From IMG/VR virus record IMGVR_UViG_3300037246_000791, positions 1 through 24,266 of that record: a stretch of 24,266 nt of DNA; one strand, 5' to 3'. The position numbers were made by a program, and so were the translations under genes. Under the pieces are notes generated by a model, which did no database searches, had not been told where the DNA came from, and was given only the letters and a program-made list of their open reading frames with translations. This stretch comes from a virus. Below, piece after piece: positions 4,378 through 23,473 of this stretch (the first letter of the stretch is position 1; each line of letters starts with the position of its first letter).

Positions 4378-4584
4378 CTACTGCTCACCTCCTTTTACCT
4401 TATCTAAATCTGCTTGTGATTTCTTAATTTCTATTTGTAATCCTTCTATATTCTTTTCGTAATCTTGTATTTTTCTTTTATGTTTCATAATCTCTATCTC
4501 TATTCTTTTGACTGCGTGTAATTGTCCTTGAACCTTGCTTTCGGCTTCTGCAAGCCTTATTTGTTCGTTATAGCTCGTACCCAT
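4378..4584 (-). CDS. Small coiled-coil protein (68 aa)
   Basis: A highly charged helical protein. From about residue 8 to 64 it has continuous Lys/Glu-rich heptad-like spacing of I/L (V-K-R-I-E-I-E-I-M-K-H-K-R-K-I-Q-D-Y, then I-E-G-L-Q-I-E-I-K-K), typical of a single coiled coil. There is no membrane segment, so a spanin-type role is not supported. The start overlaps the end of the preceding virion gene by 17 nt, and its TAG abuts the next ATG. It might oligomerise as an assembly factor or an attachment stalk. That is a guess; the family is unrecognised. Confidence 0.72.
   Translation of the reverse strand: MGTSYNEQIRLAEAESKVQGQLHAVKRIEIEIMKHKRKIQDYEKNIEGLQIEIKKSQADLDKVKGGEQ
4385..4395 (-). 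promoter_or_regulatory. Near-perfect Shine-Dalgarno site
   Basis: AAAGGAGGTGA lies 7 nt before the ATG at 4377, inside the end of the preceding coiled-coil gene. It complements the 3' end of bacterial 16S rRNA over almost its whole length. It fixes the start of the 182-residue virion protein and indicates high expression. Confidence 0.8.
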
Positions 4585-5089
4585 AGAATCCTCCTGAGAA
4601 TGGATTGATTGTTGGTTTTTGGTTTTCTACTTTAAGTTCTATCAAATCACCAGCATTACCTTCCATTTCTAAGTTAGCATACACATCTCTTTTTGTCCAC
4701 GAATTTCTTGTTTGCCATACCTTGACACTATCAATATATAGTCTGAAAATACCATCTGTCCCACCCTCACCGAATATCCCATGAATACGGAGCTTTTTAC
4801 CTGTTGCAACTGTTGTGGAAATTAACAAAGATTCTGTGCTGCCAGCAACTGAAGCCTCACCGAAAACATTAACTAGGTTTTTCCCTACTAGTTCCTCTAA
4901 TTCGTCTACATCAAGTTGGGTGTCGGTAATTAAGTTACCATCTGAATCAACCGCAACCTTAATCTTTGTGCTTGTATCGGAGTTCCAGCCCCACAAGATA
5001 ACTCTCTTTGTTTCTGGTAATGGAAGGTCGTCATGTTCCCTCTTTTGAATCTCAGGATAGTAAGCTGGTTGCCTCTTTGGGAGTGCCAT
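4568..5089 (-). CDS. Putative beta-sandwich virion protein (173 aa)
   Basis: The N-terminal arm is Pro- and charge-rich (MALPKRQPAYYPEIQKREHD), followed by I-K-V-A-V-D-S-D-G-N-L-I-T. The C-terminal half has regular beta strands (G-K-K-L-R-I-H-G-I-F, G-I-F-R-L-Y-I-D-S-V-K-V-W, D-L-I-E-L-K-V-E-N) and ends G-G-F-Y-G-Y-E-L. The combination of an N-terminal 'DSDGNL' turn and a C-terminal sandwich ending in G-Y-E-L or G-V-E-L resembles the downstream 182-residue protein. It starts 3 nt after the stop of a 55-codon gene. An exposed virion or appendage component is likely. The assignment rests on fold-like pattern and context, not on a named family. Confidence 0.75.
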   Translation of the reverse strand: MALPKRQPAYYPEIQKREHDDLPLPETKRVILWGWNSDTSTKIKVAVDSDGNLITDTQLDVDELEELVGKNLVNVFGEASVAGSTESLLISTTVATGKKLRIHGIFGEGGTDGIFRLYIDSVKVWQTRNSWTKRDVYANLEMEGNAGDLIELKVENQKPTINPFSGGFYGYEL

Positions 5090-10922: not shown

Positions 10923-10926
10923 ATAT

Positions 10927-10937
10927 TTATATTATCA
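10927..10937 (-). promoter_or_regulatory. Candidate -10 element for a leaderless transcript
   Basis: TATGAT (10932-10937) or the TG-extended TAATAT (10927-10932) lies 5-10 nt before the ATG at 10922, in a 44-nt stretch that is almost pure A/T. Either would place the transcription start on or within a few bases of the ATG. No convincing -35 element is visible. Support comes from the lack of an SD site and the terminator just upstream, which would leave the gene without a promoter otherwise. Confidence 0.35.
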
Positions 10938-10960
10938 TATATGTTGTCATAATAATATAT

Positions 10961-10987
10961 AATAAAAAAGGCGGAGTGTTAGTCCGC
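10961..10987 (-). terminator. Rho-independent terminator
   Basis: On the minus strand AGGCGGA and TCCGCCT form a 7-bp GC-rich stem with a 7-nt loop, followed by TTTTTTATT. It stands 11 nt after the stop of the small basic gene and closes that transcription unit before the glycosylation operon. Confidence 0.85.
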
Positions 10988-10998
10988 CTAGTTTATGA

Positions 10999-11175
10999 TT
11001 AAAATGTCCTGCAAGTAATATTCCACTCTTTTATTCTCTTGCGAGGTACTACCTGTTCACGATAGTTTTTAACCGCACGATTTACTGCTGTGTGTTCTTT
11101 AACTGCTCTTTCCCTAAAAGTTCTCTCTTTTAGATATGGGCTGTAAGTCCACACTCTTACTAAATAGCTTTTAAT
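10999..11175 (-). CDS. Small basic protein (58 aa), apparent ATT start
   Basis: The protein reads K-S-Y-L-V-R-V-W-T-Y-S-P-Y-L-K-E-R after the start, then an Arg/Lys/Ala-rich helix (F-R-E-R-A-V-K-E-H-T-A-V-N-R-A-V-K-N-Y) and a basic tail: a short strand plus helix, net strongly positive. It may bind nucleic acid or act as a small regulator; no family is recognised. A strong ribosome site (AAAGGGGGTGA) at 11181-11191 places the start at ATT (11175). An upstream TTG (11205) has no ribosome site, and a GTG at 11184 lies within the ribosome site itself. The gene stands alone between two terminators with its own extended -10 promoter. Reading frame is likely; start is less sure. Confidence 0.65.
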   Translation of the reverse strand: MKSYLVRVWTYSPYLKERTFRERAVKEHTAVNRAVKNYREQVVPRKRIKEWNITCRTF

Positions 11176-11180
11176 AGCAA

Positions 11181-11191
11181 TCACCCCCTTT
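11181..11191 (-). promoter_or_regulatory. Shine-Dalgarno site deciding a non-standard start
   Basis: AAAGGGGGTGA precedes an in-frame ATT by 5 nt. The scaffold and capsid genes show the same AAGGxGGTGA core at comparable distance from their GTG and ATG starts, which supports reading ATT as the initiation codon here. Confidence 0.5.
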
Positions 11192-11235
11192 CTGTTAAAA
11201 TTCAAGGAATATATATGTCTATATAGCCTTATATA

Positions 11236-11244
11236 ATTATACCA
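11236..11244 (-). promoter_or_regulatory. Extended -10 promoter for the small basic gene
   Basis: TGGTATAAT is a perfect TATAAT with the TGn extension. No good -35 box lies 17 nt upstream, as is common for extended -10 promoters. It follows the capsid terminator and precedes the small basic gene. A start near 11229 gives a leader of about 50 nt. Confidence 0.6.
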
Positions 11245-11263
11245 TGCCTTTTTAGAGCCTTTT

Positions 11264-11319
11264 TTGAATTCAAGAAATTGGAAAATAAAGAAAAGTTGAA
11301 TTCAGATTGAAGAAATTGG
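11264..11319 (-). repeat. Imperfect direct repeat upstream of the extended -10 promoter
   Basis: Plus-strand TTGAATTCA-AGAAATTGG (11264-11281) recurs at 11296-11319 as TTGAATTCA-GATTGA-AGAAATTGG, the same two half-sequences with 6 extra bases between them. Each includes the palindrome TGAATTCA. The repeats lie 20-80 nt upstream of the -10 box, where activator or repressor sites usually sit. Confidence 0.5.
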
Positions 11320-11360
11320 TATTTTTAAAAACTTGTACATAGCCAAAATTTAAAACCACG

Positions 11361-11384
11361 AAAAATCCCTCAATAAAGAGGGAT
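11361..11384 (-). terminator. Rho-independent terminator after the capsid gene
   Basis: ATCCCTC and GAGGGAT form a 7-bp stem with a 6-nt loop, followed by TTTTT on the minus strand. It lies about 65 nt after the capsid stop and ends the scaffold-capsid unit. Confidence 0.85.
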
Positions 11385-11431
11385 AATCGGTCTTGCTGGA
11401 GACGAGTCAGACTTGCTCGGTTTATACTCCG

Positions 11432-11448
11432 CTAACCCCCAGGGTTAG
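11432..11448 (-). other. Hairpin directly after the capsid stop codon
   Basis: CTAACCC and GGGTTAG form a 7-bp stem with a 3-nt loop, 1-2 nt after the capsid TAA. There is no T-run, so it is not a terminator by itself. It could protect the 3' end of the abundant capsid message from exonucleases together with the terminator downstream. Confidence 0.6.
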
Positions 11449-11449
11449 T

Positions 11450-18502: not shown

Positions 18503-18658
18503 TTAAGCTCCTCCTCCATAAGCAATATTTTCTAAATCTGTTGGTTCTCTATCTTTAGGCTTCTTCCTATCCTTTCTGTTTCCCCAGACCTTCCAGGGTT
18601 TACACATTAGACAACCAGCCCTGGCTTGCTTTGGTTTCTTTCTCTTAAAGTTAGTCAT
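18503..18658 (-). CDS. Tiny basic CxxC protein (51 aa), MTNFKRKK family copy 2
   Basis: A 51-codon frame that starts inside the last 8 nt of the methyltransferase gene and ends 4 nt before the zinc-finger gene. It begins MTNFKRKKPKQARAGC, has C16-L-M-C19-K-P-W-K-V-W-G-N-R-K-D-R, and ends with an acidic stretch and G-G-G-A. The C-x2-C-K-P-W-K element recalls small basic bacterial proteins of unknown role with a 'CxxCKPxK..G' core. Its first eight residues match those of the 43-residue protein at 18134-18265. Its GGAGGAGGAGC tail doubles as the ribosome site for the next gene. Confidence 0.72.
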   Translation of the reverse strand: MTNFKRKKPKQARAGCLMCKPWKVWGNRKDRKKPKDREPTDLENIAYGGGA

Positions 18659-19610
18659 ACATTAGTATATCCTTTTTGATGGTTTCTGCTATCGCCTTCA
18701 TTTGCAGGGGCATAACTGCGTTCCCTAGCTGCTTCCATTGTAGCGTGGGCGTTCCAGCCAGCTTGAAATCGTCAGGGAAAGAGCAGAGCCTTTTAACTTC
18801 TAGTATTGAGAGTACTCTGTCCTCAAAGGGGTGGTAAAGGAAGGGCTGTGTGAGAATGGTGCTTGCTGGCCTGTTCCAGGACACCCTCTTGCTGTTGAAG
18901 TAACTCCCTTTCGGGTGGTACTTGTTCCCCCCCTCTCCTGGCCTCATCAGGGGTAGTGTCTTCTTGATAAATGCGTTCGTGGTCTTCCTTGTCGCAACTT
19001 GGTCTTTGAGGTCCGAGATGGCTTCCTTTACGCTTACTATCTTGCCTTGGGGTTTGGGGAAGACTGGTTTCTTTCCCAGGTCGGGCCTCACCCCTATGTA
19101 GAATATTCTTTGCCTCGCCTGCGGTACTCCGTAGTTGGCCGCATTGAGAAGCTTTGCCCCTATAATATATCCTGTCCCCCTTAGCTCTTTCAATATCTCG
19201 TTGAACAATCCTTTCATTTTGCCTTTATATTGCCCCGACACATTTTCCATTATGAAAACTTGCGGCTGCAATCTGTTTACGAGCTTGATGAAGCTTAAGA
19301 ACAGCTTGTTCCTTGGGTCTAGTATTTTTCTCTTTCCTGCGGTTGAAAAGCCCTGGCAAGGCGGTGAGCCGTCCAGTATGCAAAGCTCACCCTTTTTAAT
19401 ATTGGCTCTTTTCATTAGTTCTTCTGGGGTTACCGTTGTTATGTCTGCATTCCAAAAAGGACTTTCAAAATTTAACTTGTAAGATTTCTCACAAAGATTG
19501 TCCCAATCCAAGGCTAAAAGTTCTTTAAATCCTGCTAATTTATAACCAAGAGTAGAACCTCCACAACCAGCAAAAATTGATATGACAGTTAGTTTCTTCA
19601 TATCTACCAT
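18651..19610 (-). CDS. dcm: DNA (cytosine-5)-methyltransferase (319 aa)
   Basis: This transfers a methyl group from S-adenosylmethionine to C5 of cytosine in DNA. Motif I is I-F-A-G-C-G-G-S-T-L-G (residues 12-22), and motif IV is G-S-P-P-C-Q-G-F-S with catalytic Cys85. Motif VI is M-E-N-V (121-124), motif VIII is Q-A-R-Q-R (164-168), and motif X is Q-L-G-N-A-V (about 294-299). All key residues are present. The target-recognition part, about 180-270, is short, as in compact phage enzymes. The start overlaps the ParB-like gene by 7 nt; an ATG 9 nt later is also possible. No restriction nuclease gene is adjacent, so it is an orphan enzyme, probably protecting phage DNA. Confidence 0.95.
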   Translation of the reverse strand: MVDMKKLTVISIFAGCGGSTLGYKLAGFKELLALDWDNLCEKSYKLNFESPFWNADITTVTPEELMKRANIKKGELCILDGSPPCQGFSTAGKRKILDPRNKLFLSFIKLVNRLQPQVFIMENVSGQYKGKMKGLFNEILKELRGTGYIIGAKLLNAANYGVPQARQRIFYIGVRPDLGKKPVFPKPQGKIVSVKEAISDLKDQVATRKTTNAFIKKTLPLMRPGEGGNKYHPKGSYFNSKRVSWNRPASTILTQPFLYHPFEDRVLSILEVKRLCSFPDDFKLAGTPTLQWKQLGNAVMPLQMKAIAETIKKDILMYD

Positions 19611-20143
19611 TCATAACCGCATTTCGGGCATTTCTTTTCCGTATCTATTCCATCTGTTAAGTCTATTTCTGGCATTAAGGAGCTTCCGCCTTCTCCGAGT
19701 AAATCACCTATGGACATTGGGCTGCCAATATCTACCGAATAAGCATTCCAGTCAATATCAAATTCTGGTACTGAGTTTGCCAGCAAATCAACATCATAGA
19801 AGCCTGCTCTATCGTTATCGCTTAGGGCATATTCCATCATTCCATCTTCAGCACTTTTAAATATCCCGCTTCCCTCTTGAGCACCGTCAATCGTTGCATA
19901 AAACCCTTTTTCGTTTTTATGAAATTCAATTATGGTAACCGCTACCTCTTTGATGCTTAACTCTTTCAGTGCTTTCAGCCTCATGTTCCCGCCAATAACT
20001 GTTCCGTCTTTGGTAATGAGAAGGGGTTTGTATTTCCCTAGCCTCCTTATTTGCTCTTTAAGCCTTGAGAAATCCTTAACCTTGATGCTTCTGGGGTTTT
20101 TGTCCCATTCTTTTAGTTCCGATATTTTCTTAGTTGTTTTCAT
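19604..20143 (-). CDS. ParB/Srx-fold protein with C-terminal zinc knuckle (179 aa)
   Basis: The first 90 residues form a ParB-N/sulfiredoxin-like domain: I-S-E-L-K-E-W-D-K-N-P-R, L-K-E-Q-I-R-R-L-G-K-Y-K-P-L-L-I, then V-I-G-G-N-M-R-L-K-A-L-K-E-L. The G-x-M-R-x3-A motif replaces the GERRxxA of chromosomal ParB, as is usual in phage proteins paired with DNA methyltransferases. Y-A-L-S-D-N-D-R-A-G is another family feature. The C-terminus ends C-P-K-C-G-Y-E-W, half of a zinc ribbon. No HTH domain follows, so it is not a partition ParB. It overlaps the methyltransferase gene. Nucleotide binding or DNA clamping, or a nuclease role, are possible; the function is inferred. Confidence 0.85.
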   Translation of the reverse strand: MKTTKKISELKEWDKNPRSIKVKDFSRLKEQIRRLGKYKPLLITKDGTVIGGNMRLKALKELSIKEVAVTIIEFHKNEKGFYATIDGAQEGSGIFKSAEDGMMEYALSDNDRAGFYDVDLLANSVPEFDIDWNAYSVDIGSPMSIGDLLGEGGSSLMPEIDLTDGIDTEKKCPKCGYEW

Positions 20144-21191: not shown

Positions 21192-21335
21192 CTAAAAATA
21201 GTCGGTTACTTCTGGTGTCGCTGTTGGTTCTGGGGGAGCTGTCTTTGGTATTCTAGCAACTGCAATTCCAATAATAACTATTGCTATTAAAACAATTATT
21301 ATTTTTAATTTGTTTTCTTCTTGTTTCTTAGTCAT
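21192..21335 (-). CDS. Small membrane protein downstream of the structured RNA (47 aa)
   Basis: A 47-codon frame with a strong AAGGTGGTGAT ribosome site (GGTGG at 21345-21349, 9 nt before ATG). M-T-K-K-Q-E-E-N-K-L-K is followed by a span of about 17 residues (I-I-I-V-L-I-A-I-V-I-I-G-I-A-V-A) and a Pro/Thr-rich tail (P-K-T-A-P-P-E-P-T-A-T-P-E-V). This is a single transmembrane helix with an exposed, flexible C-terminus. The gene lies directly after the 204-nt structured RNA, whose closing helix may control its translation. The function is unknown; a holin-like or membrane-signalling peptide is possible. Confidence 0.7.
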   Translation of the reverse strand: MTKKQEENKLKIIIVLIAIVIIGIAVARIPKTAPPEPTATPEVTDYF

Positions 21336-21352
21336 TTGTTATCACCACCTTT

Positions 21353-21556
21353 CAAGGGCTTTGGTGGAGAGGGTTTGTTGTAGCTGGTCGGACATTCACA
21401 AACAAGGAAGGAAAAAACAACCGTTATAATATTTAATAAGGGCGACTTTATTCCCTAGACAGCCTCGTATCAAAGCCTTGTGCAGAGTCAGAACACAGAC
21501 TACTCGATTAACTGTCATATTGACCACTTCCCCTTTTCCTCTCCCCAAAACCCTTG
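21353..21556 (-). ncRNA. Candidate structured RNA, closed by a 19-bp helix
   Basis: On the minus strand the 5' end (21556-21538) reads CAAGGGTTTTGGGGAGAGG and the 3' end (21372-21353) reads CCTCTCCACCAAAGCCCTTG. These pair over 19 bp with one G-U and one bulged A, enclosing 165 nt. Smaller internal pairings include GUUUGU/ACAAAC and GGCUUU/AAAGUC. No convincing gene fills the segment. The CCACC in the 3' strand (21363-21367) can alternatively pair with GGTGG (21345-21349) of the next gene's ribosome site, giving two exclusive folds. It could be a cis-acting switch or a free RNA. I do not recognise RNase P, 6S, tmRNA, SRP or tRNA motifs. Confidence 0.6.
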
Positions 21557-21561
21557 TTAAG

Positions 21562-21666
21562 TTACTTGTGTTTTCTAATATGCAACCAAAGTGCTAATCC
21601 TATACAAAGTATTGCTCCGCCTGTTATATAACATAAATTAAATGGATTACTTATAAATTCAATCAT
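21562..21666 (-). CDS. Tiny single-span membrane protein (34 aa)
   Basis: A 34-codon frame starting in an 8-nt overlap (ATGATTGA) with the preceding gene's stop. M-I-E-F-I-S-N-P-F-N is followed by a hydrophobic segment (L-C-Y-I-T-G-G-A-I-L-C-I-G-L-A-L-W-L) and a basic end (H-I-R-K-H-K), so the C-terminus is predicted inside. GGGTGATAAC before the ATG can act as ribosome site. It ends 5 nt before the structured RNA. The function is unknown. Confidence 0.6.
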   Translation of the reverse strand: MIEFISNPFNLCYITGGAILCIGLALWLHIRKHK

Positions 21667-22588: not shown

Positions 22589-22605
22589 TTTCTAATTCCC
22601 TCTCC

Positions 22606-22621
22606 TAGCCCCGAAGGGCTA
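22606..22621 (-). other. UUCG-capped hairpin after the SPFH gene
   Basis: TAGCCC-TTCG-GGGCTA forms a 6-bp stem closed by a C(UUCG)G tetraloop, among the most stable small RNA hairpins. It lies 6 nt after the SPFH gene stop and just before the next ribosome site. No T-run follows, so it probably stabilises or separates the messages rather than terminating them. Confidence 0.6.
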
Positions 22622-22627
22622 AGACAA

Positions 22628-23473
22628 CTAATTAGGTAGCTGTATAAGTGGAAGGCTATCTCCCATCATATAAACAGGAAGTATTCCGTTCCATCGTTCT
22701 ATCCACATTTTCTCCAGTAATTCTGGTGAAATTGTTTGTCGTTGAAGCTCCTGCTCTCTTGCCAATCCTTCGGCTTGAGTTATACGAGCCTCTTTCTGAT
22801 ATAGTGCTTGTTCAGCAATATTCTTCTCTGTCTCAACCTTAACAGCCTGAATCTGTTTTTGTTCAATGGCAGTAATATAAGCATCGGTGAATTTTATTTC
22901 CCGAATACCAACACCATCAAGGATTAGTCCGTTGCTCTCAAATGTTTCATTAAGAGAGTTAAAAATTTCGTCCTGAACCTTTTGAGAACCATCTCCTGTA
23001 TAAAGACTCTCTGCTGTGAATCTCCTAGGTATGTTCCTCGCCCAAATACGAGACTCTGTTTTAACAATCTTTTCAACCAAAGCCTCTTGTGAACCAATAT
23101 TTTGGGCCACCCAACCAGCCTTAGTGGGGTCAATAGAGAATCTGACTGTGTAGAAAATATCTACTTGCTGACCGTCTTCCGTGTTTGTGTCCACAGGATA
23201 GTCTTTATAGTCAGCGTCAGAACCCTTCTGTTTTTCCGCAATCGTAGTTTCGTATATGACTTTCTTTGTGTCAAAACGCATAACTCCGTCTATAAGAGGA
23301 ACAACCACATGAATCCCTGGGTCTAGAGTTCTACCTGTGATTCTTCCGAATCTCTTTACAACTCCAACCTCGCCTGCTCCTACTGTGCGAAAAGTTACAA
23401 GAATAGCAACCATTATTAAAAAAGCAAGAATAACGGCACTAACCACTTTCTTTTCATCTATTTGTCCATTCAT
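22628..23473 (-). CDS. SPFH/Band 7 (prohibitin-like) membrane protein (281 aa)
   Basis: One N-terminal transmembrane segment (residues about 10-28, V-V-S-A-V-I-L-A-F-L-I-M-V-A-I-L-V) is followed by the Band 7 signature G-A-G-E-V-G-V-V-K-R-F-G-R-I (32-45) and L-D-P-G-I-H-V-V-V-P-L-I-D. Next come D-G-Q-Q-V-D-I-F-Y-T-V-R-F, I-R-E-I-K-F-T-D-A-Y and a coiled coil rich in Ala/Glu/Gln (A-I-E-Q-K-Q-I-Q-A). It ends after a short hydrophobic tail, the normal layout of prohibitin/HflC-like proteins that form membrane rings. Host members regulate FtsH or membrane domains. GAGGGTG precedes the ATG. A role in membrane takeover, lysis timing or protease control is inferred. Confidence 0.9.
   Translation of the reverse strand: MNGQIDEKKVVSAVILAFLIMVAILVTFRTVGAGEVGVVKRFGRITGRTLDPGIHVVVPLIDGVMRFDTKKVIYETTIAEKQKGSDADYKDYPVDTNTEDGQQVDIFYTVRFSIDPTKAGWVAQNIGSQEALVEKIVKTESRIWARNIPRRFTAESLYTGDGSQKVQDEIFNSLNETFESNGLILDGVGIREIKFTDAYITAIEQKQIQAVKVETEKNIAEQALYQKEARITQAEGLAREQELQRQTISPELLEKMWIERWNGILPVYMMGDSLPLIQLPN

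Follow-up and report, generated by a model that had tools for sequence, protein, structure and literature searches.

A 204-nt structured element with paired ends in the early operon of a tailed phage: a candidate noncoding RNA

The locus analyzed here raises the question of what fills a gap of 226 nt between two small genes of a phage. The window, i.e., the whole stretch of 24,266 bases which was analyzed, is a virus record with a tailed-phage gene set, and the large terminase, the portal and the major head protein are all encoded on its minus strand. In the AT-rich early region the gap (21336-21561, minus strand) separates an upstream ORF for a 34-aa single-TM membrane protein (21562..21666, minus strand; MIEFISNPFNLCYITGGAILCIGLALWLHIRKHK) from a downstream ORF for a 47-aa single-TM membrane protein (21192..21335, minus strand; codon score 0.42). 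An earlier sequence-only reading had regarded a gap of this length as exceptional. No other gap of the early region is as long, but elsewhere in the window there is one of 527 nt, at 10923-11449. This larger gap follows the major head gene and carries minus-strand terminator-like hairpins at 11384-11365 and 10989-10969; with four terminator-like sites over both strands versus 0.4 in shuffles, the sequence between the two minus-strand hairpins could contain a separate small transcript. The wider region has some further features. Upstream of the terminase genes, the segment 18651-20143 (minus strand) comprises a DNA methyltransferase gene (18651-19610) and, next to it, a gene with a weak likeness to ParB (19604-20143), and the phage encodes an SPFH / Band 7 protein (22628-23473, minus strand). 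A short UUCG-type hairpin (AGCCCTTCGGGGCT; 22605-22622, minus strand) sits in the space separating the SPFH gene from the small gene that follows, within a stretch of fold z near -4.

Nearly the whole gap, namely 204 of its 226 nt, is taken up by one structured element (21353..21556, minus strand). The pairing of its two ends, which the earlier reading had described, is borne out: 19 bp with one U-G pair (21550/21359) and one bulged A (21365) span 165 nt, and when the segment was folded this closing helix, P1, was predicted at a probability of about 1.0. The 5′ arm of P1 (CAAGGGTTTTGGGGAGAGG) lies at 21538..21556 with pair probabilities of 0.94-1.0, the 3′ arm (CCTCTCCACCAAAGCCCTTG) is placed by the fold prediction at 21353..21372 (both minus strand), and the mean pair probability of the helix is 0.99. 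Inside P1 a second helix, P2, is predicted with a mean pair probability of 0.86, in which the 5′ arm AGTGGTC (21522..21528, minus strand) would pair with 21389-21382 over 7 bp plus one bulge; its 3′ arm (GACCAGCT; 21382..21389, minus strand) was assigned from the pair probabilities. Two hairpin arms complete the predicted body of the element, P3 (GACAG...CTGTC; 21458..21516, minus strand; mean pair probability 0.80) and the weaker P4 (21408..21456, minus strand; 0.70). Adding 100-200 nt of flanking mRNA left the pair probabilities of P1 to P4 unaltered. P1 begins 5 nt past the upstream stop codon and ends 3 nt ahead of the AGGTGG of the next Shine-Dalgarno (SD) site. The element also differs from its surroundings in composition, having a G+C content of 44% versus 34% in the neighbouring sequence and 27-39% in the other gaps, with a local maximum over the element itself. 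GC-rich intergenic regions of AT-rich genomes serve as the criterion by which structured RNAs are sought (PMC6429828, PMC8632094, PMC11109978).

Could the gap instead hold a short or frameshifted protein gene? Two forms of such a gene were considered, a 40-aa ORF starting at the ATG at 21518 and a fusion over a T6 run into the frame whose TGA overlaps the next ATG. The 40-aa ORF (21396..21518, minus strand) is the sole ATG ORF within the gap; its ATG has a purine-rich stretch on the 5′ side, and overlapping stop/start junctions are present in this region. However, its codon score is -0.09, whereas the accepted small genes mostly score 0.08 to 0.42 (two of them are also slightly negative, at -0.03 and -0.08), and D, E, Q and S are all absent from the peptide, so that we judge this ORF spurious. 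In the frame whose TGA overlaps the next ATG there is no start codon. A protein gene is therefore very unlikely, and the conclusion that the gap is noncoding is fairly well supported. A likeness between the 3′ end of the gap and the C-terminus of the 80-aa gene (LKGGDNK versus LKAGDNND) was attributed to the strong SD sequence which both have in common.

We then have to ask whether the structure could be due to chance. The folding energy of the 204-nt core is -68.2 kcal/mol (z -3.64), and none of 200 dinucleotide shuffles was as stable; for 228 nt spanning the gap the z-score of the minimum free energy is -3.3. Among 211 coding-strand windows the element ranks first by fold z, in a scan with 30 shuffles per window and hence rougher z values. 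Shuffling the gap 2000 times never gave a helix as strong as P1, whereas shuffling the whole window gave one in 6 of 200 cases; the native sequence also has one of the same score (43.0) at 4604-4760 (minus strand), within the gene 4568-5089. The latter is a warning that long-range helices of this strength also arise in coding sequence. Given these shuffles and this rival helix, P1 alone, picked from a scan of 24 kb, is weak evidence. A moderately strong case results from the combination, i.e., from P1 sitting at both ends of a long noncoding gap together with the stability of the whole fold and the local maximum in G+C. On the whole we take the evidence that the structure exceeds chance as suggestive and not as proof. 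The opposite explanation, a decayed or recombinational spacer which folds well by accident, can point to the helices of equal score just mentioned, to the 10 of the 211 windows, mostly coding, which have a fold z of -3 or below, and to the fact that homologues of the element were not found in the collections searched. The gap shuffles and the coincidence of the element with a local G+C peak argue in the other direction, and phage genomes rarely retain 226 nt without a use where early genes are densely packed in an operon. Chance folding is in our view unlikely.

The search for relatives was carried out at several levels. In agreement with the sequence-only reading, which saw no motif of a known RNA class, the element matched no Rfam family: cmscan against all Rfam families gave no match at the gathering threshold or at E values up to 5, which includes the aptamer families and the covariance models of Phage_pRNA and 6S, and ARAGORN found no tRNA or tmRNA in it. 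Searches of 50,697 phage and 72,556 plasmid records with blastn detected no DNA homologue, yielding only chance pieces or nothing at all. The structural genes of the phage have relatives in IMG/VR (L002-L094), none of which carries the element, and it was likewise absent from the IMG/VR relatives sought through the terminase, the MCP and the 80-aa, 63-aa and SPFH neighbours. For the 80-aa and 63-aa proteins no relatives were found in IMG/VR. The SPFH protein has relatives at 70-73% identity in L096 and L097, two phage contigs which differ from the window in other respects, and both of these close relatives lack the element. Scans of IMG/VR with three RNA patterns gave no homologue, and a covariance model built from the single sequence, when run over viral records and loci, gave a credible score only to the window itself. 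Two candidates were discarded as chance matches, namely L115, which has only one arm in common with the element, and a 23-nt match in L157 located inside a maturation-protein-like ORF. L157 is a 3.7-kb contig, apparently an RNA phage with maturation-protein-like and replicase-like ORFs.

Since the 19/20-nt inverted ends are nearly perfect and excising the segment would give back an ordinary gene junction, a nonautonomous, MITE-like mobile element with the P1 arms as terminal inverted repeats was also considered. However, the window contains no second copy, a clear target-site duplication was not found, and a search of 84,980 genomes with the arm pattern returned 19 stretches with one match each and not a single pair. 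We consider a mobile element scarcely credible.

The sequence-only reading had favoured a translational riboswitch with two mutually exclusive structures, P1 and an anti-SD hairpin. The complementary motifs are indeed present: CCACC (21363-21367) lies in P1 and can pair with GGTGG (21345-21349, minus strand), the core of the SD site of the 47-aa ORF as identified from sequence and used for the accessibility calculations. The proposed alternation of the two structures does not follow from this, as the anti-SD pairing has a computed probability of about 1e-12 and, when enforced, raises the folding energy by about 20 kcal/mol, from -72.8 to -52.4 kcal/mol. The predicted cost of opening the SD is about equal in all states, namely 4.5 kcal/mol when P1 is closed, 5.1 when its 5′ arm is sequestered and 5.2 when the element is deleted; opening of the whole 30S site requires 7.7, 6.0 and 5.8 kcal/mol, respectively. 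According to the reading the formed helix should leave the ribosome site free; the 30S site is in fact predicted to be slightly harder to open with P1 closed, which is the opposite direction. A riboswitch should have exclusive folds of comparable energy, one of which masks the SD, and the folds computed here are not of this kind. A match to an aptamer family, as stated above, is also missing. Furthermore, the SD of the 47-aa ORF resembles other strong SDs of the phage, for instance the one before the 34-aa ORF, and therefore no special regulation need be invoked. Switching of the 47-aa ORF by the element is not supported by the modelled energies, and a riboswitch is highly improbable. The independent phage RNA, which had been mentioned only in passing, is the better reading than the switch.

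The main rival, ahead of chance, is a cis-acting mRNA element, i.e., a structured spacer insulating the 47-aa ORF from upstream translation, a message stabilizer or an RNase III processing site, in all of which cases the interior loops would be functionless. The segment lies within the operon with neither a promoter found directly upstream nor a terminator found after it, and it ends just ahead of the SD. Moreover, P1 with its 19 bp comes close to the size of helix which RNase III cuts. On the other hand, a short hairpin would suffice for a spacer or a processing site, which would require neither 204 nt nor a branched interior rich in G+C, and the predicted accessibility of the SD is nearly independent of the element. 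We regard a cis-acting role as possible, though on balance somewhat unlikely.

The relatives of the terminase allowed a comparison by position; they stem from IMG/VR, and in genome_contigs the terminase had no relative. In four of them there is one extreme long-range-paired gap each (helix z 5.1 to 7.8, fold z -3.3 to -6.9), located 3.5 kb upstream of the terminase start in L003 (2429-2753) and in L004 (6453-6639), 0.8 kb upstream in L005 (193-304) and 2.9 kb upstream in L006 (1366-1531). The element of the window itself lies 3.6 kb upstream of the terminase. Such gaps account for 4 of 32 gaps upstream of the terminase and 3 of 249 elsewhere (Fisher p 0.004), in a comparison which was set up post hoc, after the hits had been seen, and in which the 32 is a hand count. 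Four further relatives (L008, L010, L011 and L015) have no such gap. No sequence similarity of the four gaps to the element or to each other was detected, nor any match to phage DNA or, for the relatives, to Rfam; a common arm sequence of L003 and L005 suggested by eye was not borne out by a MAFFT alignment. Together the four gaps are a hint that early RNAs may form a class defined by position. It is conceivable, although doubtful, that each genome of this lineage carries a single structured RNA of about 100-200 nt, clamped at its ends, at a roughly fixed early site upstream of the terminase, whose sequence evolves fast with only architecture and position being kept, so that the class would be invisible to sequence-based family searches.

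Our preferred reading, which we hold tentatively and with somewhat less than even confidence, is that the element is a discrete structured noncoding RNA of the early operon acting as an RNA on a phage or host partner. It would be made as part of the early polycistronic transcript of the phage. According to the prediction P1 would clamp both ends, so that the P2-P3-P4 body could fold independently of the flanking reading frames. P1 would most likely be the site at which the element is excised, perhaps through a cut of the RNase III type, or protected, and the element would bind its partner as an RNA. The 47-aa ORF would retain its own ordinary strong SD. This reading is based on a P1 probability of about 1 regardless of the flanks, the top rank in fold z, the G+C peak, the lack of a credible ORF, a helix which fills the gap and the four positional analogues. 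It is weakened by being derived from a single sequence, by helices of P1 strength in 3% of the whole-window shuffles and in a coding gene, by the lack of an adjacent promoter or terminator, and by analogues which have no common sequence and whose enrichment is post hoc. Should the element prove real, no known family would include this phage RNA, and the analogues would suggest that early noncoding RNAs of uncultivated phages have been missed by sequence searches. Such RNAs would be candidates for functions in host takeover, counter-defence or packaging.

Several known RNAs resemble the element in part. The phi29-type packaging RNA (pRNA, Phage_pRNA in Rfam) is phage-encoded, with about 174 nt of similar size, and its ends pair; yet the element has no Rfam match to it, and the packaging enzyme of the window is a phrog_2 large terminase and not a gp16-type ATPase. 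6S RNA has about 200 nt and a long terminal helix as well, but it is a rod with a central bubble, whereas the predicted fold of the element is branched by P3 and P4 and is not recognized by the Rfam model. Translational riboswitches and structured 5′ leaders share with the element the location of a structured RNA directly 5′ of an SD, the riboswitches differing from it by an exclusive alternative fold of comparable energy. Finally, the stable RNAs of T4 (species 1 and 2) are small phage RNAs of unknown function which, as we suppose for the element, are part of a polycistronic early transcript; blastn gave no phage DNA match of the element beyond chance pieces.
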